Assembly (NCBI GenBank): GCA_937967455.1
Contig: CALCJK010000003.1
Location: 62,001-126,000, forward strand
Length of the DNA: 64,000 nucleotides
DNA from: an uncultured bacterium
Lineage (GTDB): Bacteria; Bacteroidota; Ignavibacteria; UBA10030; BY39
Direction of reading: 5' to 3'
Within the stretch, counting starts at the first letter, position 1, and the number at the start of each line of letters is the position of its first letter. Positions 30,943 to 46,242 of this stretch are shown in pieces. Under the pieces are notes generated by a model that did not search any database, was not told the DNA's origin, and saw nothing but the letters and a program-made list of their open reading frames with translations. Position numbers and translations under genes: made by a program.

Positions 30943-31485
30943 ATGAAGAAAAAGATAATCATTATTGGTTTAGGTAATGAATATATATCAGATGATGGTG
31001 TTGGAGTAAAAGTTGTGAGACAACTCCAGAAACAAATAAAAGATAATGGAGAAATCACAGACTGGTTTGATATAAAATTTGAAGAGCTTGCAATCGGTGG
31101 CTTGGGAATTATTGATGTTATTAGTGGATATGATATATGCATAATTATCGATGCAATATATACACGCAAAAAAAAAGTTGGAACAATATACAGATTCGTT
31201 CAGAGAACGGACAAAGAAATTAAAGAAGTAAAATCATCTCATCAGATAAGCCTTTCACAAGTTCTTACATTAGCTCAAATTTTAAATATTAAAATACCTG
31301 AGCTAGTAGTAGTATATGGAATAGAGGTTAAGGATGTAACGACTTTTAATGAAGCTTGTACACCTGAAGTTGAAAGAAAGATAAAAAATTTAGCTTTATT
31401 GGTTTATAACGATTTTGTAAATTTTAATATACAATATATTTCTTGTCAACCTATTGATATATATTTTGAAGAAGAATTGATGTAA
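30943..31485 (+). CDS. [NiFe] hydrogenase maturation protease (HycI/HyaD/FrcD-like)
   Basis: IIIGLGNEYISDDGVGVKVV, IGGLGIIDVISGYDICIIIDAI, SSHQISLSQVL, VVYGIEVKDV. Confidence 0.88.
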   Translation: MKKKIIIIGLGNEYISDDGVGVKVVRQLQKQIKDNGEITDWFDIKFEELAIGGLGIIDVISGYDICIIIDAIYTRKKKVGTIYRFVQRTDKEIKEVKSSHQISLSQVLTLAQILNIKIPELVVVYGIEVKDVTTFNEACTPEVERKIKNLALLVYNDFVNFNIQYISCQPIDIYFEEELM

Positions 31486-31510: not shown

Positions 31511-32197
31511 ATGGATAATTTAAATTTTCAATCAGCTGGGTATATGAGTAAAAAAGAGGTGGAATTAAGAAGAATTTTTCTCGAACAGGTGAATTATATT
31601 CCAGCGGGTGAGAGGATTAAAAGATGTATTCAGTGCGGCACCTGTACTGGATCTTGTCCTGTAAGTTATGCTATGGATATTTCACCACGCCAATTGATTG
31701 CACTTTTTCGTGCGGGGGAGATGGAAACAATTATGAAAAGTCGTACAATCTGGATTTGCGCATCTTGTTATGCATGTACAACCAGATGTCCTTCTGGTAT
31801 TAAGATTACGGATATTATATATGCACTTAAAAGGACTGCTATGGAGAAAAATTATATATCTCAAGCAAATCAAGTGCAGATACTGGCAAATCTTTTTGTT
31901 AATAATTTAATGAAATATGGGAGATTACATGAGGGAACCCTAATAAGAAATTATTATCTTAAAACCAGTTTATGGAAATTATTTAAACTTATTCCATTAG
32001 CTAAGAAATTGTATCAAACGAAGAGATTATCTTTATTTCCTAAGCGAATAAATGCATATCATTCACTATCAAAAATAATCAAGAAAGCTCAGGAAATTGA
32101 TCTAAGAATAACTGCCCCGCCGTTAGAATATTCTCCTGAATATGTAGGTTATAGAACATTGGGTGAAATGAAACTCGAACAAAGGAAAGGTGAATAA
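31511..32197 (+). CDS. hdrC: Heterodisulfide reductase subunit C-like (HdrC), two [4Fe-4S]
   Basis: RIKRCIQCGTCTGSCPVSYAMDISPRQLIALFRAG, WICASCYACTTRCPSGIKITD. Confidence 0.88.
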   Translation: MDNLNFQSAGYMSKKEVELRRIFLEQVNYIPAGERIKRCIQCGTCTGSCPVSYAMDISPRQLIALFRAGEMETIMKSRTIWICASCYACTTRCPSGIKITDIIYALKRTAMEKNYISQANQVQILANLFVNNLMKYGRLHEGTLIRNYYLKTSLWKLFKLIPLAKKLYQTKRLSLFPKRINAYHSLSKIIKKAQEIDLRITAPPLEYSPEYVGYRTLGEMKLEQRKGE

Positions 32198-33079
32198 ATG
32201 AAATACGCATACTATCCAGGATGTAGCCTGGAAAAAACACAAAGAGGATATGATCAATCTGTTAGAGAAATTTTTAAAATTCTTGGACAGGAGTTGATTG
32301 AAATCGAAGATTGGAATTGTTGTGGTGCTACAATGTATATGTCGGTAAAGGAGACTGTATCATTGGCTGTATCTGCACGTAATCTTGCTATAGCCGAAAA
32401 GATGGGACTTGATATTGTGGCTCCTTGTAGTTCCTGTTTTACTGTATTGGCAAAAACCAATCGAATATTAAATCAAGTACCAGAAATGCATCAAAATGTT
32501 AATGAAGCACTTTCAGAAAGCGGATTGAGCTATAGTGGTAAAACCCGTGTTCGTCATCCTCTTGATATTTTAGTTAACGATATCGGAATTGAATCGATAA
32601 TTCATAAAACCAAACGTAGCTTAAATGGACTTAAAGTTGCTCCATATTATGGCTGTCAGATAGTAAGACCTGAAAAAGGGTTTGATGATCGCGAGAATCC
32701 AGTACTAATGGATAAGTTATTTAATAAATGTGGTGCTGAAATAGTGTATTATCCTATGAAAGTAAGATGTTGTGGTGGAATGTTAATGACTACATTTGAA
32801 GATACGGCATTAAAGTTAAATAAAGAACTATTGGAGTGTGCTCAGAAACATCAAGCTGACATAATTGTGACAACCTGTCCTTTGTGTCACATGAATTTAG
32901 AAGGATATCAGGATCGAATTAATGAAATATATAATACTAAATTTAATATGCCAATTTTGTATTTCACACAATTGCTTGGTATCGTGCTGGGTCTACCAGA
33001 ATCAAGCTTAGGTTTAGATTCTAGTTTTATCCCAATGCCTCAAAAATTAAAATCCATAATGGAGGTTCAATATGTATAA
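32198..33079 (+). CDS. hdrB: Heterodisulfide reductase subunit B-like (HdrB), two CCG domains
   Basis: YYPGCSLEK...WNCCGATMYMS...APCSSCF and YYGCQIV...VRCCGGMLMTTFE...TTCPLCHMNLEG. Confidence 0.9.
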   Translation: MKYAYYPGCSLEKTQRGYDQSVREIFKILGQELIEIEDWNCCGATMYMSVKETVSLAVSARNLAIAEKMGLDIVAPCSSCFTVLAKTNRILNQVPEMHQNVNEALSESGLSYSGKTRVRHPLDILVNDIGIESIIHKTKRSLNGLKVAPYYGCQIVRPEKGFDDRENPVLMDKLFNKCGAEIVYYPMKVRCCGGMLMTTFEDTALKLNKELLECAQKHQADIIVTTCPLCHMNLEGYQDRINEIYNTKFNMPILYFTQLLGIVLGLPESSLGLDSSFIPMPQKLKSIMEVQYV

Positions 33080-33944
33080 AGAGAAAACAGAAGGTAACGG
33101 TCAAGTAAAAATTGGTGTTTATATTTGTCATTGCGGTGTAAATATTGCAGCTACTGTAAATGTAGTTGCTGTTCGGGAGTTTATATCTAAGCAGCCTAAT
33201 GTTATCATAGCTCGCGATTATAAATTTATGTGTTCTGACCCCGGCCAGGATTTGATTAAACAAGATATTAAAAATTTGGGTATAAATAGGGTTGTTGTAG
33301 CTGCATGCTCTCCATTAATGCATGAACTTACTTTTAGGGTTGCTGCAGAAACAGCTGGACTTAATAGATATCTCGTACAAATTGCCAATATTAGAGAACA
33401 TTGTTCATGGGTGCATGACGATAGAGATGCGGCCACAGAAAAAGCAAAAGCATTGGTTAACGCCGCTGTGAAGCGAGTTGCACTTCATAAAGAACTTCAA
33501 ATTACAAAGCAACCTTTAAATAAAAATACATTAATAGTTGGTGGTGGAATTGCAGGAATTCAAGCCGCTCTTGAGATTGCTAATGCTGGATATCATGTTT
33601 ATCTTGTAGAAAGGGAGCCTTCAATTGGTGGTAAAATGGGCCTGTTTGATAAAACATTTCCCACACTCGACTGTGCCGCTTGTATCTTAACTCCAAAGAT
33701 GGTATCTGTTGGTCACCGTAAAGATATTACTCTTTTAACCTACTCTGAAATTGAGGGTGTATCTGGTTATATTGGGAATTTTAAAGTAAAAGTTCGTAAA
33801 AAAGCTAGATATGTAGATACAGAAAAATGTACCGGTTGCGGACAGTGCTGGAGTAACTGCCCTGCTACTAGAATTCCGACAGGTCGAGCAATATATTTTG
33901 GTGATAAATTAGTAAATGAAATTTCTACAAAACCAAAAGAATAA
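33072..33944 (+). CDS. N-terminal half of HdrA (N-domain, first half of FAD domain, first [4Fe-4S] motif of inserted ferredoxin)
   Basis: IGVYICHCGVNIAATVNV, LIVGGGIAGIQAALEIANAGYHVYLVEREPSIGGKMGLFDKTFPTLDCAACILTPKM, KVKVRKKARYVDTEKCTGCGQCWSNCPATRIPTGRAIYF, then stop at 290 aa. Confidence 0.85.
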   Translation: MYKEKTEGNGQVKIGVYICHCGVNIAATVNVVAVREFISKQPNVIIARDYKFMCSDPGQDLIKQDIKNLGINRVVVAACSPLMHELTFRVAAETAGLNRYLVQIANIREHCSWVHDDRDAATEKAKALVNAAVKRVALHKELQITKQPLNKNTLIVGGGIAGIQAALEIANAGYHVYLVEREPSIGGKMGLFDKTFPTLDCAACILTPKMVSVGHRKDITLLTYSEIEGVSGYIGNFKVKVRKKARYVDTEKCTGCGQCWSNCPATRIPTGRAIYFGDKLVNEISTKPKE

Positions 33945-33946
33945 AA

Positions 33947-34339
33947 ATGCTTCTTTCAGAAATTGTTAAAATACTATCTTGTTATGTGTTTGCTTGTGAT
34001 AATCGTTTAGATATCGATATAAAATTTGGATGTGCATCTGATCTTATGAGTGATGTGCTTGCCTTTTCACAACCTGATGCTGTATTATTAACAGGGCTTG
34101 TTAACTCTCAGACAATTCATACTGCATACATATCAGAAATAAGGGCAATTGTATTTGTTAGAGGTAAAAAGCCTACAGAAGATATTGTTCAATTAGCTGA
34201 AAGTAAATCTATACCTTTACTCTGTACAAACTATTCAATGTATGAAGCGTGTGGGTTGTTGTATAAAGCTGGTTTGGAATCAACTATGGAATTTGTTCCA
34301 CCAAATTCATCAAAAAAGTCATTTAATAGTTCTTTTTAA
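33947..34339 (+). CDS. DRTGG-domain protein (copy 1)
   Basis: KFGCASDLMSDVLAFSQPDAVLLTGLVNSQTIHTA...IVFVRGKKPTEDIVQLAESKSIPLL. Confidence 0.75.
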   Translation: MLLSEIVKILSCYVFACDNRLDIDIKFGCASDLMSDVLAFSQPDAVLLTGLVNSQTIHTAYISEIRAIVFVRGKKPTEDIVQLAESKSIPLLCTNYSMYEACGLLYKAGLESTMEFVPPNSSKKSFNSSF

Positions 34340-34764
34340 TGAATGAGTTTTTTTCACAAACCTATGAAATAAAAGGTAAAGATTTTCAAAATGCAGGAAA
34401 AGTTTCAACAGGTATCAAAACTTTATTAAAACAATTGGGCATAAAACCGGAAATAATCAGAAAAGTTGCTATTGCATGTTATGAAGCTGAAATGAATATA
34501 GTTATGTATGCAAAAACAGGAACAATGAAATTGGATATAGATACAAAAAAAATAAAAATTACTGTCTTAGATCAAGGTCCTGGTATTCAAGATATAGATC
34601 TTGCAATGAAAGAAGGGTACTCAACTGCAACACCAGAAATGCGAGAAATGGGTTTTGGTGCTGGAATGGGTCTGCCTAATATTAAAAAGAATTCTGATGA
34701 ATTTAAAATTGAGTCTTCTATTGGTGAAGGAACAAAACTTGAAATTACAATATTTATTAACTGA
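34339..34764 (+). CDS. RsbW/anti-sigma-type HATPase
   Basis: RKVAIACYEAEMNIVMYAKTG, ITVLDQGPGIQDIDLAMKEGYSTATPEMREMGFGAGMGLPNIKKNSDEF. Confidence 0.82.
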   Translation: MNEFFSQTYEIKGKDFQNAGKVSTGIKTLLKQLGIKPEIIRKVAIACYEAEMNIVMYAKTGTMKLDIDTKKIKITVLDQGPGIQDIDLAMKEGYSTATPEMREMGFGAGMGLPNIKKNSDEFKIESSIGEGTKLEITIFIN

Positions 34765-34766
34765 GA

Positions 34767-36092
34767 ATGCAGAACGATTTTAGATCAATAAAAATTGATA
34801 GCGAAAAATGCCAAGGACGAATGGCATGTATGCGTATTTGTCCAACGCAGGCAATAAGAGTTAAAAATCGTAAAGCTATCCTGATAAATGAAAAATGCAT
34901 TGACTGTGGGATGTGTGTAAGAGTTTGTCCAAATAATGCAGTGATTCCAAAAACAAGTTCGTTTAGTGATTTTTCAAAATTCAAATACACAATTGCATTA
35001 CCTTCACCTGTTTTATATTCACAATTTAAAGTTGAAATTACTCCAAGTTTGATATTAAATGCTTTTAAGAAAATTGGTTTTGATGATGCATATGATGTAG
35101 CTTGCGCTTCTGAAGCCGTGAGTATTGCAATTCAAGAATTTTTAGATACCAATTTTACACATCAACCTTATATATCTCCTTTTTGTCCAGTGATTGTGAG
35201 ATTAGTTCAAATAAGATACCCAAACTTGCTGGAACAACTAATCCCAATCGATTCACCAATGGAAATTGCTGCACGTGAAGCTAAAAATCTAAAAATGAAA
35301 GAAACAGGTTTGAGTGCAAAAGATATTGGTGTTATATATATAACTCCCTGCCCAGCAAAGATGATTGCAATTAAAAATCCTCCGAGGAAAAAATATTCTT
35401 TTGTGGATGGAGCAATTTCTATTGCTGAAATATATCCAAATTTAATTCAAGCACTGACCAAATCAAATGATGATGGATCCAAGAGTGAAATTAAAGGAAT
35501 TGGATTAGGTTGGCCAATGTTAGGTGGACAAGTATCAACACTTAAAGCTCACGATACGATTGCAATTGCAGGTATCTTAGAAGTAATCAGAATTTTTGAA
35601 GAGATTGAAAATGGAAAACTTAAAAACATTAAATATATTGAATGTCATTCCTGCAATACTGCATGTGTAGGTGGATCTTTAAATATTGAAAATCCTTATA
35701 TCGCAAGAAATCGTGTCATAAAAATGTTAGAAAAATATGGTAACACACCATGCCAGGATAGAAATTATATAAAAAACTTAATACAAAAGAATTTCTTTTC
35801 GTTACCGGGTAAGATTCCACCAACACCAATAGCTCCAATTGATAGTGATATATCACAAGCCTTGAAAAAAATACAGGAAAAAGCAAATATATATGAAAAG
35901 TTGCCGAAAATTGACTGCGGTGCTTGTGGCTCCCCTGACTGCAATACATTTTCTGAAGATGTGATTACAAACAACGCTGAGCTTGATGATTGTGTTTTTA
36001 TTGCACTGAAAAAATTTGATAATGCAACAGTAAAATCATCGGATATCATAAAAAAACACTTAAATAAAATTTATAAAAATTTTGATAACTGA
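34767..36092 (+). CDS. [FeFe]-hydrogenase-like large subunit, sensory (HsfB-type) with N-terminal 2[4Fe-4S] and C-terminal four-Cys Fe-S domain
   Basis: CQGRMACMRICPTQAI/CIDCGMCVRVCPNNAV ferredoxin; degenerate H-cluster loops SPFCPVIVRL, TPCPAKMIAI, IECHSCNTACVGGSLNIENPYIARNR; C-term KIDCGACGSPDCNTFSEDV. Confidence 0.82.
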   Translation: MQNDFRSIKIDSEKCQGRMACMRICPTQAIRVKNRKAILINEKCIDCGMCVRVCPNNAVIPKTSSFSDFSKFKYTIALPSPVLYSQFKVEITPSLILNAFKKIGFDDAYDVACASEAVSIAIQEFLDTNFTHQPYISPFCPVIVRLVQIRYPNLLEQLIPIDSPMEIAAREAKNLKMKETGLSAKDIGVIYITPCPAKMIAIKNPPRKKYSFVDGAISIAEIYPNLIQALTKSNDDGSKSEIKGIGLGWPMLGGQVSTLKAHDTIAIAGILEVIRIFEEIENGKLKNIKYIECHSCNTACVGGSLNIENPYIARNRVIKMLEKYGNTPCQDRNYIKNLIQKNFFSLPGKIPPTPIAPIDSDISQALKKIQEKANIYEKLPKIDCGACGSPDCNTFSEDVITNNAELDDCVFIALKKFDNATVKSSDIIKKHLNKIYKNFDN

Positions 36093-36097
36093 AAATA

Positions 36098-36442
36098 ATG
36101 AAATTAGCAGAAATTATTAAAATATTAAATCTGAACGTCATAACTGGTGAAAATGATTTAGACAAAGAAGTAAATGGTGGTTATGCGAGCGATTTATTAA
36201 GTGATGTAATTGCTAATGCCCAAAATGGTCAATTATGGATTACTATGCAGACTCATGTAAATATTGTTGCTGTAGCTGTTCTAAAAGAACTCTTAGCAAT
36301 AATTATTGTAAATGGAAGAAACCCTGCTGATGATACTATACAGAAAGCAAAAGAGCAGGGGGTGGTAATTTTATCTAGCAATTTATCCGCATTTAAGTTA
36401 TGCGGAAAATTATATGAATTAGGTATTGGCAAAGATGTTTAA
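36098..36442 (+). CDS. DRTGG-domain protein (copy 2)
   Basis: NGGYASDLLSDVIANAQNGQLWITMQTHVNIVAVAVLKELLAIIIVNGRNPADDTIQKAKEQGVVILSSNLSAFKLCGKLY; paralog of 33947 ORF. Confidence 0.78.
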   Translation: MKLAEIIKILNLNVITGENDLDKEVNGGYASDLLSDVIANAQNGQLWITMQTHVNIVAVAVLKELLAIIIVNGRNPADDTIQKAKEQGVVILSSNLSAFKLCGKLYELGIGKDV

Positions 36443-37179
36443 TGGCTAAAGTATACAAGGCAGATTTGCATATTCATACATGCTTGTCGCCTTGTGGTGA
36501 CTTAAAAATGTCACCAAAAAATATCATAGAGCAAGTTCTTAAAAATAATATTGATATTATAGCAATATGCGATCATAATTCCGCTAAGAATGTATCAGCT
36601 GTAATTAAAGCAGCTCAAAATAAAAATGTGTACGTTATTCCAGGCATGGAAATATCAAGCAGTGAAGAAGTTCATATATTGGCGCTCTTTGAAAATATAG
36701 AATCTGCGATTGAAATGGAAAAGCTTGTTTATGAAAATCTTCAAGGTTTCAATGATCCAGATTTGTTCGGTATGCAGATAATTGCAAACGAGTTTGATGA
36801 GGTTGAAGGTTTTGAAGAAAAATTACTTATCGGTGCAGTTAGTTTAAGTATCGATCAAGTAGTAGATTTTATACATCAGCTGAATGGTTTAGCTATCGCA
36901 AGCCATATCGACAAACAAAATTATAGTGTAATAAGCCAGCTGGGTTTTGTACCAGAAAATATTAAATTTGATGCACTTGAAATCTCAACAAACATTGATT
37001 TAACAAATGCTAAGAACATGTTTAATGAATATAGTAAAATACCGTTTTTAACAAATTCTGATGCACATTTTATTGAAGAAGTTGGCAAAGTTACAAATAA
37101 TTTTTTGCTTGAATATCCATCATTCAATGAGATACGAAAAGCTTTAAAAAATGAAGATAGAAGAAAAATAGTAATTTAA
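36442..37179 (+). CDS. PHP-domain phosphoesterase-like protein
   Basis: ADLHIHTCLSPCGDLKMSPKNI, AICDHNSAKN, PGMEISSSEEVHILALF, LTNSDAHFIEEVG. Confidence 0.85.
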   Translation: MAKVYKADLHIHTCLSPCGDLKMSPKNIIEQVLKNNIDIIAICDHNSAKNVSAVIKAAQNKNVYVIPGMEISSSEEVHILALFENIESAIEMEKLVYENLQGFNDPDLFGMQIIANEFDEVEGFEEKLLIGAVSLSIDQVVDFIHQLNGLAIASHIDKQNYSVISQLGFVPENIKFDALEISTNIDLTNAKNMFNEYSKIPFLTNSDAHFIEEVGKVTNNFLLEYPSFNEIRKALKNEDRRKIVI

Positions 37180-37194
37180 TGAGGGTCTTTAAAA

Positions 37195-37749
37195 TTGGAA
37201 GATTTATCTTTGCATATACTGGATATAGTTGAGAATTCTATTAAGGCCAATGCAAAAAATATTGAGATTAAAATTTTGATTGATAAGAAAAATGATATCA
37301 TTAAGGTTACAATTAAAGATGATGGAAAAGGAATGACTGAAGATGAATTAAAAATAGCTTTTGATCCATTCTACACAAGTGGTAAAAATAAAAAAACAGG
37401 TTTAGGATTATCACTTCTAAGAGATTCAGCATTAAAGGCTGAAGGTAATGTAGATATTGTTTCTGAAATAAATAAAGGAACGGAAATTCAAGCATATTTT
37501 AAAATAAGTCATCCAGATATGATACCATTGGGTGATCTTAGTAAAACAATGTTAGTAATGGTTGCTGCAAATCGGGATAAGCAATTTAGATTAAGTCACA
37601 TATACAATGGATTGGAATTTAATTTTGATACAGCAGAATTCAAGGCACACAAAACGGACATTGTATCATATTTAAAACAGATAAAAGATAAACTTGAAGA
37701 GTATAAAAACTTTTTAGAAATAATAAAAGGAGATTTATATGGAATATAG
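37195..37749 (+). CDS. HATPase (histidine-kinase-like ATPase domain) without phosphoacceptor domain
   Basis: LHILDIVENSIKANAKNIEI N-box, VTIKDDGKGMTEDEL, KTGLGLSLLRDSALKAEG; TTG start. Confidence 0.8.
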   Translation: MEDLSLHILDIVENSIKANAKNIEIKILIDKKNDIIKVTIKDDGKGMTEDELKIAFDPFYTSGKNKKTGLGLSLLRDSALKAEGNVDIVSEINKGTEIQAYFKISHPDMIPLGDLSKTMLVMVAANRDKQFRLSHIYNGLEFNFDTAEFKAHKTDIVSYLKQIKDKLEEYKNFLEIIKGDLYGI

Positions 37750-38206
37750 TGCAATTGAAGTAGCTAAAAAAGTATCTAATCGTTGGGGAAACAAACCTGA
37801 AAACATTATTGAAATGATGCACGATATACAGACAGAATTAAATTATCTCCCCAAAGATGTACTTTATGAAATTTCCAAGTATGCAAATGTTCCAATAAGT
37901 AAAATTTTTAATATCGCTACTTTTTACAATGCATTTAGTTTAAAGCCTAAAGGAAAATATAAGATTTGTGTTTGTATGGGCACTCCTTGTCATGCCCTGG
38001 GTGCACCCAGGATAGTGAGCGCTCTTGAAAGGGAACTGGATATTAAATGTGGTGAAACAACCAAAGATATGAAATTTAGTGTAGAGATTACTGGTTGTGT
38101 TGGTACTTGTGGACTTGCCCCAGTAGTTGTTATTAATGAGGATCTTTATGGACCTGTCCAAGTATCGAGTGTACCCAAATTAATCAAAAAATATGATTCA
38201 AAATAA
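37739..38206 (+). CDS. NuoE/HydC-like thioredoxin-fold [2Fe-2S] subunit
   Basis: DIQTELNYLPKDVLYEISKYANVPISKIFNIATFYNAF, CMGTPCHALGA, GCVGTCGLAPVVVIN. Confidence 0.9.
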   Translation: MEYSAIEVAKKVSNRWGNKPENIIEMMHDIQTELNYLPKDVLYEISKYANVPISKIFNIATFYNAFSLKPKGKYKICVCMGTPCHALGAPRIVSALERELDIKCGETTKDMKFSVEITGCVGTCGLAPVVVINEDLYGPVQVSSVPKLIKKYDSK

Positions 38207-38220
38207 AAGGAGAATATAAA

Positions 38221-38604
38221 ATGGGAAAGTTAAAAATAGAAGATCTTGACAAAATTGCTGAGAGTGCTCGTAAGAAAATCAGTCTAAGAGAAGGTGCGGG
38301 AAAAGTAAAAATAACAGTTCATATGGGTACCTGTGGTATCGCAGCAGGTGCAAGAAATATAATGGCAACATTTTTAAATGAAATTGAAATGCATAATGCA
38401 AAAGACATTATTGTTGTTACCTCAGGATGTGCTGGTTTATGCAGTAAGGAACCTATGGCAACTATAGAATATGAGAATCAAGCTCCTGTTAAATATATCG
38501 AATTAAATGAAGAAAAAGCTAAAAAGATATTCGATGAGCATGTATTACATGGTAAGATCGTACCTGAATATGCTCTTTCGATAGGAAGTGAAAGAATTCA
38601 ATAA
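38221..38604 (+). CDS. (2Fe-2S) ferredoxin domain protein (HydD/TM1420-like)
   Basis: ITVHMGTCGIAAGARNIM...VVTSGCAGLCSKEPMATIEY, located between NuoE and NuoF. Confidence 0.8.
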   Translation: MGKLKIEDLDKIAESARKKISLREGAGKVKITVHMGTCGIAAGARNIMATFLNEIEMHNAKDIIVVTSGCAGLCSKEPMATIEYENQAPVKYIELNEEKAKKIFDEHVLHGKIVPEYALSIGSERIQ

Positions 38605-38622: not shown

Positions 38623-40455
38623 ATGAAAAATTACAGATTACAGCTTATGGTATGTGCTGGAACTGCCTGTGTATCAAACCACTCTCTAGAAATAAAGGAA
38701 GCATTAGAAAAAGAAATTCAAAACCATCACATTGAAAATGAAGCACAGGTAGTTCAAACTGGTTGTAATGGATTTTGTGGTGCAGGACCTATACTTGTTG
38801 TCCAACCAGATGGTATATTCTATCAGCTTCTAAAGGTAACAGATGTAAAATTAATTGTTGAAGAACATCTTATAAAAGGTAGACCTGTTAAAAAGCTTTT
38901 ATATACACCACCAGAAGAAAAAACACCTATTCCAAAATTATCCGACATACCATTCTTTGCTGAGCAGACCCTCATTGCATTAAGAAACAGAGGTTTAATA
39001 GACCCTGAAAGCATTGATGATTATATTGCACGTGGTGGCTACAAAGCACTAGCAAAGGTATTAACATCTATGACTCCTGATGAAGTATTGAATGAAATTA
39101 AAATTTCAGGTTTAAGAGGTAGAGGGGGTGGTGGATTTCCAACAGGTGTAAAATGGGAAACTTGTAAAAAAGCACATGGAGATGAAAAATATGTAATTTG
39201 CAATGCAGATGAAGGAGACCCAGGAGCTTTTATGGATAGATCAATTATTGAAGGAGATCCTCATTCTGTTATTGAAGGTATGATTATTGGAGCATATGCA
39301 ATAGAAAATGTTAAACAAGGATATATATATGTAAGAATGGAATATCCACTTGCTATCAAGAGATTCCAAATAGCAATAAATCAAGCAAGAGAATATGGTT
39401 TATTGGGTAAAAATATATTTGATAAAGGATTTGACTTCGATATTGAAATACGACGCGGTGCAGGTGCATTTGTATGTGGTGAGTCAACTGCTTTAATGGC
39501 ATCAATAGAAGGGAAACCAGGCGAACCAAGAGCAAAATACATACACACTGTCGAGAAAGGTCTTTGGGATAAGCCTACCTGTTTGAACAATGTCGAAACT
39601 TGGGCAAATGTTCCTCAGATAATATTGAGAGGTGGAAAATGGTTTGCTAGTATTGGCACAGGTGATGTTTCTGAAGATCCATGGGGTGGAAGCAAAGGAA
39701 CTAAAGTTTTTTCATTAGCAGGTAAAGTGAATAACACTGGTTTAGTGGAAGTTCCAATGGGAATTACACTTAGAGATATTATATTTAGAATTGGTGGTGG
39801 GATTCGTGATGGCAAGAAGTTTAAAGCAGTACAAACGGGTGGTCCTTCAGGTGGTTTCATACCTGAAAGCTTAATTGATCTGCCAGTCGATTATGAGGAA
39901 CTTACAAAAGTTGGTTCAATGATGGGTTCAGGTGGAATGGTAGTTACTGACGAAGAAAACTGCATTGTTGATATGGCAAAATATTTCCTCGCTTTTACTC
40001 AGGCTGAATCATGTGGAAAATGTATACCATGTAGAGAAGGAACAAAGAGGATGTTAGATATTCTAGAAAAAATAACTGCAGGACATGGTACTGAAGAAGA
40101 TCTCATCTTGTTAGAAGAATTGTCGAATGCTGTTGTGGAATCTTCTTTATGTGCACTTGGTGGTTCAGCTCCAAATCCAGTACTTACTTCTCTAAAGTAT
40201 TTTAGAGATGAATATGAGGCACACGTAAAAGGTAAAACGTGTCCAGCTCATATATGCAGACAATTGAATGTATATAAAATTGATGAAAAAGTATGCCTTG
40301 AAATCGGGCACGGTTGCGACGTGTGTAAAAAGTATTGCCCCGACGGAGCAATTATTGGTGAAAGAAAAAAAGTCCATTACATAGATCCGGCAAAATGTGG
40401 TAAATGTGGCGCCTGCTATGATGTATGTAATTTTAATGCAATTTATATAGAATAA
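38623..40455 (+). CDS. NuoF/HydB-like NAD(H):FMN subunit with N-terminal [2Fe-2S] and C-terminal 2[4Fe-4S] domains
   Basis: CAGTAC...GCNGFCGAGP; GLRGRGGGGFPTGVKWE, CNADEGDPGAFMDR, GAGAYVCGE-like GAGAFVCGESTALMASIEG, ESCGKCIPCREGT; C-term CDVCKKYCPDGAI, CGKCGACYDVCNFNAI. Confidence 0.92.
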   Translation: MKNYRLQLMVCAGTACVSNHSLEIKEALEKEIQNHHIENEAQVVQTGCNGFCGAGPILVVQPDGIFYQLLKVTDVKLIVEEHLIKGRPVKKLLYTPPEEKTPIPKLSDIPFFAEQTLIALRNRGLIDPESIDDYIARGGYKALAKVLTSMTPDEVLNEIKISGLRGRGGGGFPTGVKWETCKKAHGDEKYVICNADEGDPGAFMDRSIIEGDPHSVIEGMIIGAYAIENVKQGYIYVRMEYPLAIKRFQIAINQAREYGLLGKNIFDKGFDFDIEIRRGAGAFVCGESTALMASIEGKPGEPRAKYIHTVEKGLWDKPTCLNNVETWANVPQIILRGGKWFASIGTGDVSEDPWGGSKGTKVFSLAGKVNNTGLVEVPMGITLRDIIFRIGGGIRDGKKFKAVQTGGPSGGFIPESLIDLPVDYEELTKVGSMMGSGGMVVTDEENCIVDMAKYFLAFTQAESCGKCIPCREGTKRMLDILEKITAGHGTEEDLILLEELSNAVVESSLCALGGSAPNPVLTSLKYFRDEYEAHVKGKTCPAHICRQLNVYKIDEKVCLEIGHGCDVCKKYCPDGAIIGERKKVHYIDPAKCGKCGACYDVCNFNAIYIE

Positions 40456-40470: not shown

Positions 40471-42231
40471 ATGGTAAATATAAAAATTGACGACATCGAG
40501 GTTCAAGTTCCAGAGGATACCCCTATACTTAAAGCTGCTGAAAAAGCAGGAATATGGATACCCACAATGTGCTATAATGATCTGATTGAGCCATATGGTG
40601 TATGCCGTCTTTGCAGTGTAGAAGTAGTAAGGGGAAAACGCAGCAGGGTTGTAACATCCTGTAATTATCCTGTAAGGGAAGGTATTTCTGTGCGGACGAA
40701 CTCAGAAAAAATTAAATGGTTAAGAAAAGTAATAATGGAATTAATGGTTTCCAGATGGCCTAATGTTAAAGTTGTCAGAGAAATGGCTGAAAAATTAGGC
40801 GTTGAAAAACCAAGATTTGAATCTCTAGAAAAAGATGAATCTCCTGATGCCTGTATCTTATGTGGACTCTGTGTAAATGTTTGTCGTGACTTGGTTGGCG
40901 CAAGTATTCTCGGTTTCGCCTACAGAGGAATTAAAAGAGAAGTTGTACTTCCTTTTGATGAGAAAACAGACAAGTGTATTGTTTGTGGTGCATGTACTCA
41001 TGTGTGCCCAACGGGACATGTCAAAATGGTAATTGAAGATTATAAAGGCAAAAAGCCCGAGTTTTCACTTGGTCCAAAAACAGCTATTTACGTTCCATCA
41101 ATGCAAGCAGTTCCAAGGGTTCCTGTAATTGATCCAAATTCATGCATTCATTTTAAAACTGGAGGATGTGAAACCTGTGCAAAAGTTTGTGAACCTAAAG
41201 CCATTAATTATGATATGAAAGATGAAATTGTTGAGTTAGATGTCGGACAAATACTTGTAGCAACTGGATATGATATCTTTGATGCTTCTCAGATGGCTCA
41301 GTATGGTTATGGTAGATACGATAATGTATATAGTTCACTTGAATTTGAAATGATGTTAAATTCTACTGGTCCAACCGGTGGAAAGGTTCTTACGAAAGAT
41401 GGTAAAGAACCTCGTTCTGTAGGTATCATTCACTGCATCGGCTCTCGGGATACAAATTATCACCCATATTGCTCCCGTGTTTGTTGTATGTATGCTCTTA
41501 AGTTTGCACATCTTGTACACGATAGAACAAATGCAGCAATATATCAATTTTATATTGATATGAGAGCTTTCGGAAAAGGTTACGAAGAATTCTATTCTAG
41601 ATTATTAGATGAAGGTATTAATATGATTCGTGGTAAAGCAGCAGAAGTGGTTGAAGCCCCTACTGTAAATGGTCAGGAAGGCAATCTATTGATTAGATGT
41701 GAAGATACTCTGATAGGAAAGTTTAGAGAAATTCCTGTTGATATGGTAATTCTTTGCAATGCCATAGAACCAAAACGTGATAGTGATACAGTACGTAGAT
41801 TATTTTCAATAAGCAAAAGTCCAGACGGATTCTTCCTCGAGCGACATCCAAAGCTTGATCCAACATCGACCACAACAGATGGAGTATATATTGCCGGTTG
41901 TGCACAGGGTCCAAAGGACATTCCAGATACTGTCGCACAGGCGAGTTCCGCTGCAGCAAGAATACTTACTTTAATCTCTAAAGGTGAAGTTGAAATTGAT
42001 CCTATCAGAGCAATGGTAATGGATGAATATTGCTCTGGATGTAGAATTTGTAACAATTTATGTCCTTATGGAGCAATTGAATATATTGAAGATAAGAAAA
42101 TATCTCATGTTAATGAAGCACTATGTAAAGGTTGCGGTACGTGTGTCGCAGCTTGTCCATCCTCAGCTATGACCGGACAAGGTTTTACAGACGCACAAAT
42201 ATTATCAGAATTAGAAGGACTTATGATTTAA
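40471..42231 (+). CDS. Fusion: NuoG/HydA-type N-terminal Fe-S module + C-terminal half of HdrA
   Basis: [2Fe-2S] C-x10-C-x2-C-x15-C (TMCYNDLIEPYGVCRLCS...TSCNYP), CILCGLCVNVC/CIVCGACTHVC, then TAIYVPSMQAVPRVPVIDPNSCIHFKTGGCETCAKVCEPKAINY...FYIDMRAFGKGYEEFYSRLL...GVYIAGCAQGPKDIPDTVAQASSAAARIL...CSGCRICNNLCPYGAI...CKGCGTCVAACPSSAM. Confidence 0.88.
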   Translation: MVNIKIDDIEVQVPEDTPILKAAEKAGIWIPTMCYNDLIEPYGVCRLCSVEVVRGKRSRVVTSCNYPVREGISVRTNSEKIKWLRKVIMELMVSRWPNVKVVREMAEKLGVEKPRFESLEKDESPDACILCGLCVNVCRDLVGASILGFAYRGIKREVVLPFDEKTDKCIVCGACTHVCPTGHVKMVIEDYKGKKPEFSLGPKTAIYVPSMQAVPRVPVIDPNSCIHFKTGGCETCAKVCEPKAINYDMKDEIVELDVGQILVATGYDIFDASQMAQYGYGRYDNVYSSLEFEMMLNSTGPTGGKVLTKDGKEPRSVGIIHCIGSRDTNYHPYCSRVCCMYALKFAHLVHDRTNAAIYQFYIDMRAFGKGYEEFYSRLLDEGINMIRGKAAEVVEAPTVNGQEGNLLIRCEDTLIGKFREIPVDMVILCNAIEPKRDSDTVRRLFSISKSPDGFFLERHPKLDPTSTTTDGVYIAGCAQGPKDIPDTVAQASSAAARILTLISKGEVEIDPIRAMVMDEYCSGCRICNNLCPYGAIEYIEDKKISHVNEALCKGCGTCVAACPSSAMTGQGFTDAQILSELEGLMI

Positions 42232-42251: not shown

Positions 42252-42428
42252 ATGCAACTCATCTTAACAAAAGAAGAAAAACAAATTTTAGAAGAATTAC
42301 TAATAAGTGAAATAAAAGAAATAAAAGATGAAATTCACCATACAGATGATCATGATTACAAGGAAGAGTTGAAAAATAAAGAAAAAGCGCTTGAAGAATT
42401 GTTATCAAAAATTCAAATATTGGATTAA
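42252..42428 (+). CDS. Small 58-aa charged coiled-coil-like protein (not in ORF track)
   Basis: ATG 42252: MQLILTKEEKQILEELLISEIKEIKDEIHHTDDHDYKEELKNKEKALEELLSKIQILD*; fills the gap between the fusion and radical SAM genes. Confidence 0.6.
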   Translation: MQLILTKEEKQILEELLISEIKEIKDEIHHTDDHDYKEELKNKEKALEELLSKIQILD

Positions 42429-42432
42429 CAGA

Positions 42433-43359
42433 ATGACTCCATCATATCTGAAATTAAAAAATTCTAACGAATTATCTGAAAGAGTTGTTCAATTATACAA
42501 TTTGATAAAAGAATGTAGATTGTGTCCGCGTGCTTGTAAAGCAAAACGTTTTGAGAAAAAGTATGGTGTTTGCCGTTCTACTAATCAATTATTTGTTTCA
42601 AGTTTATCAGCTCACTTTGGCGAAGAACCAGTTTTAGTTGGCTGGAATGGATCAGGCACAATATTTTTTACAAATTGTAATCTTTGGTGCATTTATTGTC
42701 AGAACTATGATATTAGTCATTTAAAAAATGGAGAACCAATAAGTATACAGCAATTAGCTGAAGCAATGTTATCATTACAACAATTAGGTTGTCATAATAT
42801 AAATTTAGTTACACCGACTCATTATGTACCAATGATTATTGAATCATTAAATATTGCAGCAGAAAAAGGATTAAACATTCCAGTTGTTTATAATTCTGGT
42901 GGTTATGAATCTGTAGAAACTTTAAAATATCTCGATGGTATTATTGATATTTATATGCCAGATATCAAATATTCTGATAATCATAATTCAAAAAAGTATT
43001 CTGGTGTTGACGATTACTGGGATGTGGTTCGCAAAGCAGTGATTGAAATGCACCGCCAGGTAGGTGATCTGAAAATTAACAATTTTGGAATTGCTGATAG
43101 AGGTTTATTGGTCCGTCATCTTGTATTACCTAATAACATAGCTGGTTCAGAAAGGGTATTAGACTTTATTGCTAATGAAATTTGTATTGATACTTATGTG
43201 AACATAATGGATCAATACAGACCTTGCTTTAAAGCTAGTCTGTATCCTGAGCTAAATAGGAGAATTACTGAATCAGAATATCAATATGTTTTGCAATATG
43301 CTGAATCATTAGGTTTACATAGGGGATTTGGAAAATTTGAAAAATTATCAATAACATAA
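42433..43359 (+). CDS. Radical SAM protein, PflA-like (COG1313 type)
   Basis: CRLCPRACKAKRFEKKYGVCRS, FFTNCNLWCIYCQNYDISH; ATG at 42433 preferred over 42391, which overlaps the small ORF. Confidence 0.82.
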   Translation: MTPSYLKLKNSNELSERVVQLYNLIKECRLCPRACKAKRFEKKYGVCRSTNQLFVSSLSAHFGEEPVLVGWNGSGTIFFTNCNLWCIYCQNYDISHLKNGEPISIQQLAEAMLSLQQLGCHNINLVTPTHYVPMIIESLNIAAEKGLNIPVVYNSGGYESVETLKYLDGIIDIYMPDIKYSDNHNSKKYSGVDDYWDVVRKAVIEMHRQVGDLKINNFGIADRGLLVRHLVLPNNIAGSERVLDFIANEICIDTYVNIMDQYRPCFKASLYPELNRRITESEYQYVLQYAESLGLHRGFGKFEKLSIT

Positions 43360-43365
43360 AGAAAG

Positions 43366-43815
43366 GTGTTAAAAATGTCTTTTGAACCCAAAATAATTGG
43401 CTTTTTATGTAACTGGTGTTCGTATTCAGGAGCAGATCTTGCAGGAGTATCAAGAATAAAATCCGCTCCCAATGTGCGTGTTATTCGGACTATGTGTAGT
43501 GGTAGAGTTGACCCAACTTTTATATTAAAAGCTTTTCAGTTAGGGGCTGATGGGGTTGTTGTTATGGGATGCCACCCAGGTGATTGCCACTATCAAGAAG
43601 GTAATTATAAAACTATGAGAAGAATTCCATTTCTTAAACGAATAATTAAAGATTTTGGAATTGAACAAGAGCGTTTAAGATTGGAATGGGTTAGTGCCTC
43701 AGAAGGAGATATATATGCTAAAGTTGTAAATGAATTTACCGAAGAAATTAGAAAACTTGGACCAATTAAACACCCTTCATGTAAAGTTAAACTTGAAAAA
43801 GTATTAGGAGGATAA
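43366..43815 (+). CDS. mvhD: F420-non-reducing hydrogenase iron-sulfur subunit D (MvhD)
   Basis: IIGFLCNWCSYSGADLAGVSR, RTMCSGRVDPTFILKAFQLGADGVVVMGCHPGDCHYQEGNYK. Confidence 0.92.
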   Translation: MLKMSFEPKIIGFLCNWCSYSGADLAGVSRIKSAPNVRVIRTMCSGRVDPTFILKAFQLGADGVVVMGCHPGDCHYQEGNYKTMRRIPFLKRIIKDFGIEQERLRLEWVSASEGDIYAKVVNEFTEEIRKLGPIKHPSCKVKLEKVLGG

Positions 43816-43816
43816 T

Positions 43817-44779
43817 ATGCAAAAACCAAAATTAGCTTTGTATTGGGCAGCAAGCTGTGGTGGTTGTGAAATTGCAGTTTTGGATATACAGGAAAAAATA
43901 CTCGATGTTGCAAACACTTTCGATATAGTTTTTTGGCCTGTTGCAATGGATTTTAAGTATGATGATGTCAGAAAAATGGATGACAAAAGTATAGATATTT
44001 GCTTGTTTAATGGAGCAATTAGAAATTCTGAAAATGAAGAAATTGCACATCTACTCCGTCAAAAATCAAAAACTTTGATAGCATTTGGCTCTTGTGCATA
44101 TGAAGGTGGTATACCAGGATTAGCGAATTTGAGTTCAAAAGAGGAAATGTTAAACTTTGTATATAAGGAATCCCCTTCAACTATTAGTGTTGATAACGGT
44201 TTCCCAAAAACACATTATAATGTACAAGAAGGTGAAATCGAGATTCCTGAATTATATGATTATGTAAAGCCATTAAAAGATGTAGTTGCAGTTGATTACT
44301 ATATTCCTGGTTGTCCACCTCAGCCAGAACAGATATGGAAAGTTATTGAATATATTTTAAGTGGGCAGCCGTTACCACCTACTGGCTCAATTCTGGGTGC
44401 AGGTGATAAAACATGCTGCGATGAGTGTCCAAGAGAAAGAAAAGAGAAAAAAATAAAAAAATTTTACAGACCTTTTGAGATTATTCCAAATCCAGATGAA
44501 TGCTTATTGGATCAGGGAATTATATGTATGGGACCTGCTACAAGGAGTGGTTGTGGAGCATTGTGCGTAAAAGCTAATGTTCCATGTAGAGGCTGTTATG
44601 GCGCTCCGCCAAATTGCCTTGACCAGGGTTCAAAAATGATAAGTGCCCTAAGCTCCGTTATCGACGCACATTCTCCTGAAGAAATAGGACAGGTTCTAGA
44701 TACTATCGCAGATCCAATAGGCACGTTTTATAGATTTTCGTTGGCTTATTCAATATTAAAAAGGAGAGATATACAATGA
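43817..44779 (+). CDS. mvhG: [NiFe] hydrogenase small subunit, group 3c-like (MvhG)
   Basis: WAASCGGCEIAVLDI, AFGSCAYEGGIPGLAN, YIPGCPPQPEQIW, C-terminal Cys-rich cluster region. Confidence 0.9.
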   Translation: MQKPKLALYWAASCGGCEIAVLDIQEKILDVANTFDIVFWPVAMDFKYDDVRKMDDKSIDICLFNGAIRNSENEEIAHLLRQKSKTLIAFGSCAYEGGIPGLANLSSKEEMLNFVYKESPSTISVDNGFPKTHYNVQEGEIEIPELYDYVKPLKDVVAVDYYIPGCPPQPEQIWKVIEYILSGQPLPPTGSILGAGDKTCCDECPRERKEKKIKKFYRPFEIIPNPDECLLDQGIICMGPATRSGCGALCVKANVPCRGCYGAPPNCLDQGSKMISALSSVIDAHSPEEIGQVLDTIADPIGTFYRFSLAYSILKRRDIQ

Positions 44780-46242
44780 AACATATTAAAATAGACCCGA
44801 TTACACGCCTTGAAGGTCACGGAAAAATTAATATCTTTTTAGATGAAAATGGTGAAGTTGCAAATACATATTTTCAGATTCCAGAACTTCGAGGATTTGA
44901 AACATTTTGTGTAGGAAGACCAGTTGAAGAAATGCCAAGAATCACAACACGCATATGTGGAGTTTGTCCAGAAGCTCACCATATGGCCGCTGCTAAAGCA
45001 TGCGATGCTGTGTTCAAAGTTGAGATTCCATCAGCTGCAAAAAAATTAAGAGCTCTGCTCTATAATGTTTTTTTTGCAGGTGATCATACAACACATTTTT
45101 ATGCGCTTGGTGGACCAGATTTTGTTGTCGGTCCTGATGCCCCTGCGTCCGAAAGAAATATTTTAGGAGTAGTAAAAAAAGTTGGTCTCGAAATTGGTGG
45201 TAAAGTCATTGAGATGAGAAAAAGAACTCAAGAAGTAATCAAAATACTCGGTGGCAAACAAACACATCAAGTTACATCATTACCTGGTGGTGTTAGTAAA
45301 GGTCTATCGATTGAAGAAGCTAAGGAAATTGAAAAACACTGTGAGTGGTTTGTGGAATTTGGAAAATTCACAATCAAAATCTTTAACGATATTGTATTAG
45401 CAAATAAAGCATATGTTGATCTAATTTTGTCAGATACATTCACTCATAGAACTTACTATATAGGATTGGTTGATGAAAATAATAAAGTAAATTTTTATGA
45501 TGGTAAAGTGAGAGTTGTGGACCCTAATGGAAAAGAATTTGCAAAATATGCACCATCAGAGTATTTAGATCATATTGCAGAACATGTTGAACCATGGACA
45601 TATCTGAAATTCCCATTTCTAAAAAAGGTTGGTTGGAAAGGTTTTGTAGATGGTAAGGAGAGTGGTGTATATCGTGCAACACCTCTTTCTAGATTAAATG
45701 CTGCTGATGGAATGCCAACACCACTTGCCCAAGCAGAGTATGAAAGAATGTATTCAACACTAGGTGGGAAACCTGTTCATGCTACACTTGCTACCCATTG
45801 GGCTAGAATTATTGAACTACTTAGTGCAGCAGAAATGGCATATGACTTAATAAGAGATCCAGAAATAACAAGTACTCACATAAGAAATATTCCAACAGAA
45901 ACACCCTCAGAAGGAGTCGGTATTGTTGAAGCACCAAGAGGTACACTCACTCATCATTATATAACAGATGAAAAAGGTATTTTAAAAAAGGTAAATTTGA
46001 TCGTGGGAACAACAAATAACTATGCACCAATATCAATGTCTATAAACAAGGCAGCAAGAGGTCTTATTAAAAAAGGTGTACAAGTCACCGAAGGATTACT
46101 CAATATGGTTGAAATGGCATTTAGGGCATATGACCCATGCTTTGGTTGTGCAACTCATTACTTGCCAGGTAAAATGCCTTTAGAGGTGTCAATTTTCGAT
46201 AAAGAAGGAAATTTAGTTGATGTAATTTCACGAAATACTTAA
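44776..46242 (+). CDS. mvhA: [NiFe] hydrogenase large subunit, group 3c-like (MvhA)
   Basis: ITRLEGHGKINIF, TRICGVCPEAHHMAA, YDPCFGCATH followed by a short C-terminal peptide expected to be cleaved. Confidence 0.93.
   Translation: MKHIKIDPITRLEGHGKINIFLDENGEVANTYFQIPELRGFETFCVGRPVEEMPRITTRICGVCPEAHHMAAAKACDAVFKVEIPSAAKKLRALLYNVFFAGDHTTHFYALGGPDFVVGPDAPASERNILGVVKKVGLEIGGKVIEMRKRTQEVIKILGGKQTHQVTSLPGGVSKGLSIEEAKEIEKHCEWFVEFGKFTIKIFNDIVLANKAYVDLILSDTFTHRTYYIGLVDENNKVNFYDGKVRVVDPNGKEFAKYAPSEYLDHIAEHVEPWTYLKFPFLKKVGWKGFVDGKESGVYRATPLSRLNAADGMPTPLAQAEYERMYSTLGGKPVHATLATHWARIIELLSAAEMAYDLIRDPEITSTHIRNIPTETPSEGVGIVEAPRGTLTHHYITDEKGILKKVNLIVGTTNNYAPISMSINKAARGLIKKGVQVTEGLLNMVEMAFRAYDPCFGCATHYLPGKMPLEVSIFDKEGNLVDVISRNT

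Follow-up and report, generated by a model that had tools for sequence, protein, structure and literature searches.

The window, by which we mean the whole 64,000-nt stretch of DNA analysed here, comes from an Ignavibacterium-like host and carries a run of 18 genes on its forward (+) strand, from a [NiFe]-hydrogenase maturation protease (30943–31485; TIGR00072, 5.6e-26) to the hydrogenase large subunit MvhA (44776–46242). Gaps between the genes range from −11 to 25 nt, with a single one of 159 nt. The protease gene is followed by hdrC (31511–32197; TIGR03290, 5.4e-24), encoding a 2[4Fe-4S] protein with all eight cysteines conserved in 25/25 sequences, and by hdrB (32198–33079; PF02754, 5.5e-31; TIGR03288, 7.9e-66), with two intact CCG motifs and ten cysteines conserved in 24/24. 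Directly downstream lie a 290-residue HdrA half (33072–33944) and six regulator-like genes (33947–37749; DRTGG, HATPase, Fe_hyd_lg_C, DRTGG, PHP and HATPase, an order kept in many loci). The NADH-linked part consists of BfuC/NuoE (37739–38206; PF01257, 8e-46; four [2Fe-2S] cysteines in 29/29), an HndB-like protein and BfuB/NuoF with extra Fe-S domains (38623–40455), in which C447, H534, C540 and C545 are invariant (33/33) and correspond to the B2 cluster ligands. The 586-residue fusion protein that is the subject of this study (40471–42231) comes next, and the hydrogenase genes close the run: MvhD (43366–43815; PF02662, 3.4e-54; five cysteines in 31/31), the small subunit MvhG (43817–44779; VhuG, 3.5e-72) and MvhA (VhuA, 2.6e-120), whose Ni ligands C61/C64 and C455/C458 are kept in 28/28 sequences. 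No tungsten benzoyl-CoA reductase subunit is found among the identified genes between 30943 and 46242.

Some of the smaller genes have features of their own. The HndB-like protein (38221–38604), which has a thioredoxin fold of the 2Fe-2S type and matches PF01257 weakly (1.3e-5) and fdxn_Clost (1.6e-7), contains only three cysteines (C38, C70 and C74) together with an invariant His34 (24/24), which suggests a [2Fe-2S] site with one His and three Cys ligands. Among the DRTGG, HATPase and PHP genes, the 441-residue product of 34767–36092 has an Fe_hyd_lg_C domain with H-cluster-like cysteines (FCP, TPC, CHSCNTAC) and is the sole PF02906 protein of the genome; it is possibly an H2 or redox sensor for the cluster. 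A radical SAM gene (42391–43359) sits between the fusion gene and mvhD, a position that it has only in the closest relatives (L007 and L008).

The initial annotation had described the 40471–42231 product as a NuoG-type Fe-S module joined to the C-terminal half of HdrA, and had proposed a profile search for both domains as a check. Both were recovered. Residues 1–190 (40471–41040) resemble NuoG/HydA-type proteins (PDB 9mqx_A, E = 7e-42; 8a6t_A, 1.8e-33), and residues 166–585 match HdrA (NCBIfam HdrA2, E = 7e-134, over profile positions 239–638; PDB 8rvv_A, E = 8e-123). The C-half amounts to the last 390 residues of HdrA, with HdrA positions of about 260–650 at 41047–42228. The [2Fe-2S] pattern reported for the first 200 or so residues is present as C34-x10-C45-x2-C48-x15-C64 (site A1; 40570–40662), and the two [4Fe-4S] motifs are C128/131/134/138 (A2-type; 40852–40884) and C169/172/175/179 (A4-type; 40975–41007). 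To these we add two 4-Cys sites that had not been listed: C225/233/236/240 (41143–41190), the second motif of the inserted ferredoxin domain of HdrA in the HA5/HA6 region (domain role from PMC12350162), and C322-x11-C334-x3-C338-C339 (41434–41487), the FAD-domain cluster that faces HdrBC. As had been described, the chain ends in a 2[4Fe-4S] domain (C521–C562; 42031–42156; Pfam). This gives seven predicted clusters, and none of their 28 ligand cysteines varies among 30 aligned homologues. The same alignment shows conservation of the AGxxQxPKDIPD segment and invariance of E293 (41347–41349) and K344 (41500–41502), which align with the bifurcation residues E356 and K409 of M. thermolithotrophicus HdrA, the latter contacting FAD N5 (PMC12054007).

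The feature that had drawn attention to this protein, a stretch free of Cys and His where NuoG has its HxxxCxxCxxxxxC cluster, is real: residues 79–127 contain neither amino acid, and the HxxxCxxCx5C motif is missing from all 35 homologues. We nevertheless reject it as a novelty. Type 2 Bfu enzymes are defined as those whose BfuA is without A3 and A5 (Schut et al., PMC9304861), and the loss of the His-Cys site is therefore a known hallmark of Type 2 BfuA and not peculiar to this protein. The nearest solved relative, 9mqx_A (247 residues, from a bifurcating tungsten aldehyde oxidoreductase), aligns through the 79–127 region and is likewise devoid of the motif.

What the fusion chain does lack is HdrA positions 1–238, and with them the part of the FAD site that contains GxGxxG; HdrA-N with its GxGxxG is likewise missing from the fused chain in 35 of 35 homologues scanned. 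A genome search for HdrB-type CCG domains pointed upstream within the window, to the 290-residue gene at 33072–33944. Its product, HdrA-N, directly follows hdrC and hdrB in the same cluster as the fusion gene and contains the HdrA N-domain, the dinucleotide motif GGGIAG (33540–33557) and the first motif of the inserted ferredoxin domain, C253/256/259/263 (33828–33860; 24/24). It matches NCBIfam HdrA2 over profile positions 1–256 (1.4e-111) and 8rvu_a over residues 2–266 (3.2e-104). HdrA-N and HdrA-C thus cover profile positions 1–256 and 239–638, so that all HdrA domains are encoded, and since the GxGxxG half missing from the fusion chain is supplied by a separate gene, HdrA is split. We are highly confident, from the sequence comparisons, that HdrA is broken within its inserted ferredoxin domain and that BfuA is grafted onto the C-half at this break. 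Labelling the product as plain NuoG or plain HdrA conceals a split protein.

The two halves go together across loci. HdrA-N is encoded in 29 of the 29 fusion loci with sufficient upstream DNA; in the remaining 7 of the 36 fusion loci, the contig begins less than 3.7 kb upstream of the fusion gene. A genome search (genome 99% complete) found no second copy of HdrA-N or HdrA-C in the organism from which the window derives. Pairwise distances of HdrA-N and HdrA-C correlate with r = 0.89 (26 loci), compared with r = 0.69 for HdrA-C and the BfuA part of the same chain (resampled difference 0.08 to 0.34); for reference, the N and C parts of single-chain HdrA give 0.83, as do BfuA and NuoF. Some loci link the parts naturally. 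In a planctomycete locus (L039) a single chain comprises HdrA-N, a dicluster of BfuA type and HdrA-C, HdrA-N is fused to NuoE in L038, and in L041 and L059 the two half-genes adjoin, with the BfuA domain kept. L041 (a short contig) and L059 contain both halves and no NuoEF within the fetched locus, and L018 and L025 have no adjacent MvhD, so the complete gene set is not always clustered.

Structure prediction with AF2 gave a contrasting picture for the split and the continuous protein. The fusion protein alone is modelled well in its BfuA part (pLDDT of about 90 at residues 1–120) and poorly at the FAD-domain strands (pLDDT of about 25–45); Foldseek superposes the model on 9mqx with an rmsd of 2.6 Å, and its TMt against HdrA is 0.29. 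For the one-chain relative L039, the TMt against 8rvu/5odc is 0.84. That a natural one-chain relative models as a full HdrA and the fused chain alone does not supports the split without deciding the matter, because the two alignments differ in depth (30 versus 48 rows); the models are of single chains and not of a complex.

Relatives of the fusion occur in about ten bacterial phyla, with records from Ignavibacteria, Bacteroidota, Chlorobi, Calditrichota, Zixibacteria, Acidobacteria, Planctomycetota, Eisenbacteria, Fischerbacteria and others. At the class level the distribution is patchy (13/197 genomes); a further 4 genomes match residues 232–585 only, as type III HdrA does, and 3 have an HdrA of about 700 residues. 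In the phylum-level search, the matches besides that of the window itself were HdrA proteins aligned to the HdrA part only. Other loci have HdrA-N and HdrA-C joined around GltD in a chain of about 1130–1160 residues (Pfam), and their hdrCB neighbours, and for the most part also mvhDGA, are those of the fusion loci. In trees of the C-half and of the N-half alike, these GltD loci are intermingled with the fusion loci, suggesting that the socket in HdrA was refilled more than once. A single origin of the fusion is rejected by AU tests (p = 2.7e-5 for HdrA-C and 1.4e-36 for HdrA-N), which used quick trees and groups named after the first tree had been seen.

GltD-inserted HdrA (L042–L065 and others) is common beside hdrCB and mvhDGA in many bacterial phyla; PMC12054007 reports it from nine archaeal sequences only. 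One 1243-residue chain (L074, 5646–9377) combines HdrA-N, GltD, a BfuA-type dicluster and HdrA-C, with both input modules present together. In two further HdrA genes (L069, 8057–8677; L072, 9200–9796), in-frame TGA codons fall at FAD-domain Cys positions (PTMDCPT*ILGPKM and PSMD*AI*ILGPRM), making these candidate selenocysteine HdrA proteins.

With HdrA in two pieces, one of them fused to the entry subunit of an NADH-linked electron-splitting enzyme, the hydrogenase, the Hdr reductase and the NADH/ferredoxin enzyme probably form one machine. The initial annotation had proposed an electron wire from NuoE/NuoF via the NuoG-like module and the HdrA FAD to MvhD. This topology is backed by the domains, the gene order and the conservation of the ligands, while three points need revision: the HdrA FAD is not provided by the 40471–42231 chain alone, the GxGxxG half being encoded at 33072–33944; the missing His-Cys site is, as said above, a known mark of Type 2 BfuA; and the wire has more than two ends, since hdrB and hdrC (31511–33079) add a further branch and BfuB has the B2 His/Cys ligands of genuinely bifurcating Bfu enzymes. 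We favour, with somewhat better than even confidence, a single soluble HdrA(split)BC-MvhADG-BfuABC complex in which BfuABC occupies the low-potential port of HdrA. Of the HdrA parts, HdrA-N has the N-domain, the GxGxxG portion of the FAD site and the first of the two 4-Cys motifs; behind the Type 2 BfuA, HdrA-C has the second 4-Cys motif, the remainder of the FAD site with the two bifurcation residues, the CxnCx3CC cluster and the ferredoxin domain at the C-terminus. It follows that the FAD domain would assemble only when HdrA-N pairs with the BfuA-HdrA-C chain. The ligand rule for 2[4Fe-4S] ferredoxins would place both clusters of the inserted domain across the chains, each with three cysteines from one polypeptide and one from the other. 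The separation of the two HdrA halves by six regulator-like genes counts against the single complex, as does the incomplete clustering seen in L041, L059, L018 and L025.

In Hdr complexes of known structure, the HdrA FAD receives electrons from MvhD and sends them along two paths: one electron reaches HdrBC through HA4, and the second moves over the C-terminal shuttle cluster to HA5/HA6 in the inserted ferredoxin-like domain, which serves as the low-potential exit (PMC12350162). Since the inserted domain is the low-potential port in these known complexes, BfuABC would be hard-wired at the port, as a partner in place of free ferredoxin. The complex would join H2 (via Mvh), an HdrB substrate and, through BfuBC, NAD(H) and ferredoxin. 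In the forward direction, electrons may run from the HdrA FAD to HA5/HA6, on to A4 of BfuA and then to BfuBC; in reverse, NADH and reduced ferredoxin would push electrons in, and H2 would be released.

The strongest competitor keeps the same complex and makes the inserted domain an entry: BfuABC would confurcate NADH and reduced ferredoxin and pass mid-potential electrons into HdrA, and the outputs would be H2 and the HdrB substrate. NADH has been proposed as the mid-potential donor where GltD sits in the inserted domain of type III HdrA (PMC12054007), BfuABC has been proposed to feed HdrA in Bam-Bfu (PMC9304861), and BfuBC here has the full bifurcating ligand set. We nevertheless regard this direction as unlikely, if worth keeping in mind, since the solved HdrA complexes receive mid-potential electrons at the FAD from MvhD, which is present here, and the inserted domain is described as an exit (PMC12350162).

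Our first idea was that, GxGxxG being missing, the HdrA C-half acts as an Fe-S relay without flavin that connects MvhD and BfuA; we dropped it when HdrA-N was found upstream. A version with HdrA-N employed elsewhere and BfuBC as the sole bifurcator would fit both the absence of GxGxxG from all 35 fused chains and the unfolded FAD-domain part in the AF2 model, and is improbable: HdrA-N accompanies the fusion in every informative locus (29/29) and is the partner with which HdrA-C co-varies best, E293, K344 and the AGxxQxPKDIPD segment are conserved, and L039 unites both halves in one chain. Slightly less probable still is that HdrABC-MvhADG and BfuABC are two separate enzymes whose genes just happen to lie in one operon. 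In Firmicutes, loci L061 and L064 do have unfused BfuABC-type genes beside a complete hdrCBA-mvhDGA, an arrangement that is possibly the precursor of the fused cluster. In the window, however, BfuA and HdrA-C are one polypeptide and the genome has no other HdrA-C, so the two enzymes could not assemble separately unless HdrA function were lost. An assembly artefact or a frameshift in a once continuous hdrA, to which the further breaks of HdrA-N in L019 and L040 might point, is refuted by conservation and has a negligible probability, given that several intact genes separate the halves and that the same architecture recurs in over 35 independent assemblies spread across about ten phyla.

The single complex with BfuABC at the low-potential port leads, from sequence, to a wider and more tentative proposal, to which we give somewhat less than even weight. 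Two bifurcating centres, the HdrA FAD and the FMN-FeS centre of BfuBC, would work in series in one soluble complex, with BfuA spliced in at the break in HdrA and two [4Fe-4S] junction clusters ligated across two polypeptides. Such a complex might exchange electrons among H2, NAD(H), ferredoxin and the HdrB substrate, and the input module, either BfuABC or GltD, may have been swapped repeatedly in evolution.

Every part of the cluster comes from a known family; what is new is that HdrA is split, that BfuA is grafted on at the break and that both features are combined with HdrBC and a [NiFe] hydrogenase. The closest match for the NADH-linked part is the Type 2 Bfu of Wor-Bfu from Acetomicrobium mobile (PMC9304861), which shares the BfuBC core with the B2 His and a BfuA with A1, A2 and A4 and without the His-Cys A3. 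All its sequence marks are found here (B2 ligands including the His in BfuB, the [2Fe-2S] site in BfuC and a BfuA devoid of A3), with the difference that the BfuA in the window bears the HdrA C-half and partners with Hdr and a [NiFe] hydrogenase. The NiFe-Bfu enzyme HydABCSL (7t2r/7t30) likewise couples a [NiFe] hydrogenase to BfuABC, but is of Type 3, with the A3 His-Cys cluster that is missing here, and has no Hdr. On the Hdr side, HdrABC-MvhADG (5odc) and the Elp/Fdh-Hdr complexes (8rvu, 7bkb) have in common with the window both halves of HdrA, HdrB with CCG domains, HdrC, MvhD/G/A and the bifurcation residues. The two CCG motifs of HdrB (24/24), the 2[4Fe-4S] set of HdrC (25/25) and MvhD/G/A with the NiFe ligands all agree with HdrABC-MvhADG. 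These systems differ in that the HdrA FAD domain is complete in one chain, whereas the bacterial HdrA described here is divided over two, with BfuA at the break in the ferredoxin domain. Type III HdrA (PMC12054007) has a pyridine-nucleotide module at the same inserted ferredoxin domain and occurs with mvhADG, as here; its module is GltD, within an unbroken chain, where the window has BfuABC and a broken one, and Pfam detects no GltD in the 40471–42231 product.

Ignavibacteriae Ch128a (L029) has the same cluster, noted in PMC7509429 as a group 3c MvhADG/HdrABC; that account, in its accessible portion, mentions neither a link to BfuABC nor a division of HdrA. A literature search, with subscription papers mostly outside it, likewise returned no description of a split HdrA or a BfuA-HdrA fusion, an absence that is not proof. 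A precedent for the overall design is Bam-Bfu of class II benzoyl-CoA reductase (BamB-I; PMC9304861), which also combines BfuABC with an HdrA-type module and for which two bifurcations in series have been proposed. According to the description in PMC9304861, its HdrA stands next to BfuABC (BamGHI) as a module of its own, whereas the two are fused here; Bam-Bfu has no [NiFe] hydrogenase, and the window has no tungsten BamB. If our reading is correct, the cluster encodes a naturally fused genetic link between two known families of electron-bifurcating enzymes, so that serial bifurcation, proposed for Bam-Bfu and not demonstrated there, becomes testable in a soluble enzyme, and the ferredoxin insert of HdrA would be a socket into which different NAD(P)H modules can be plugged.
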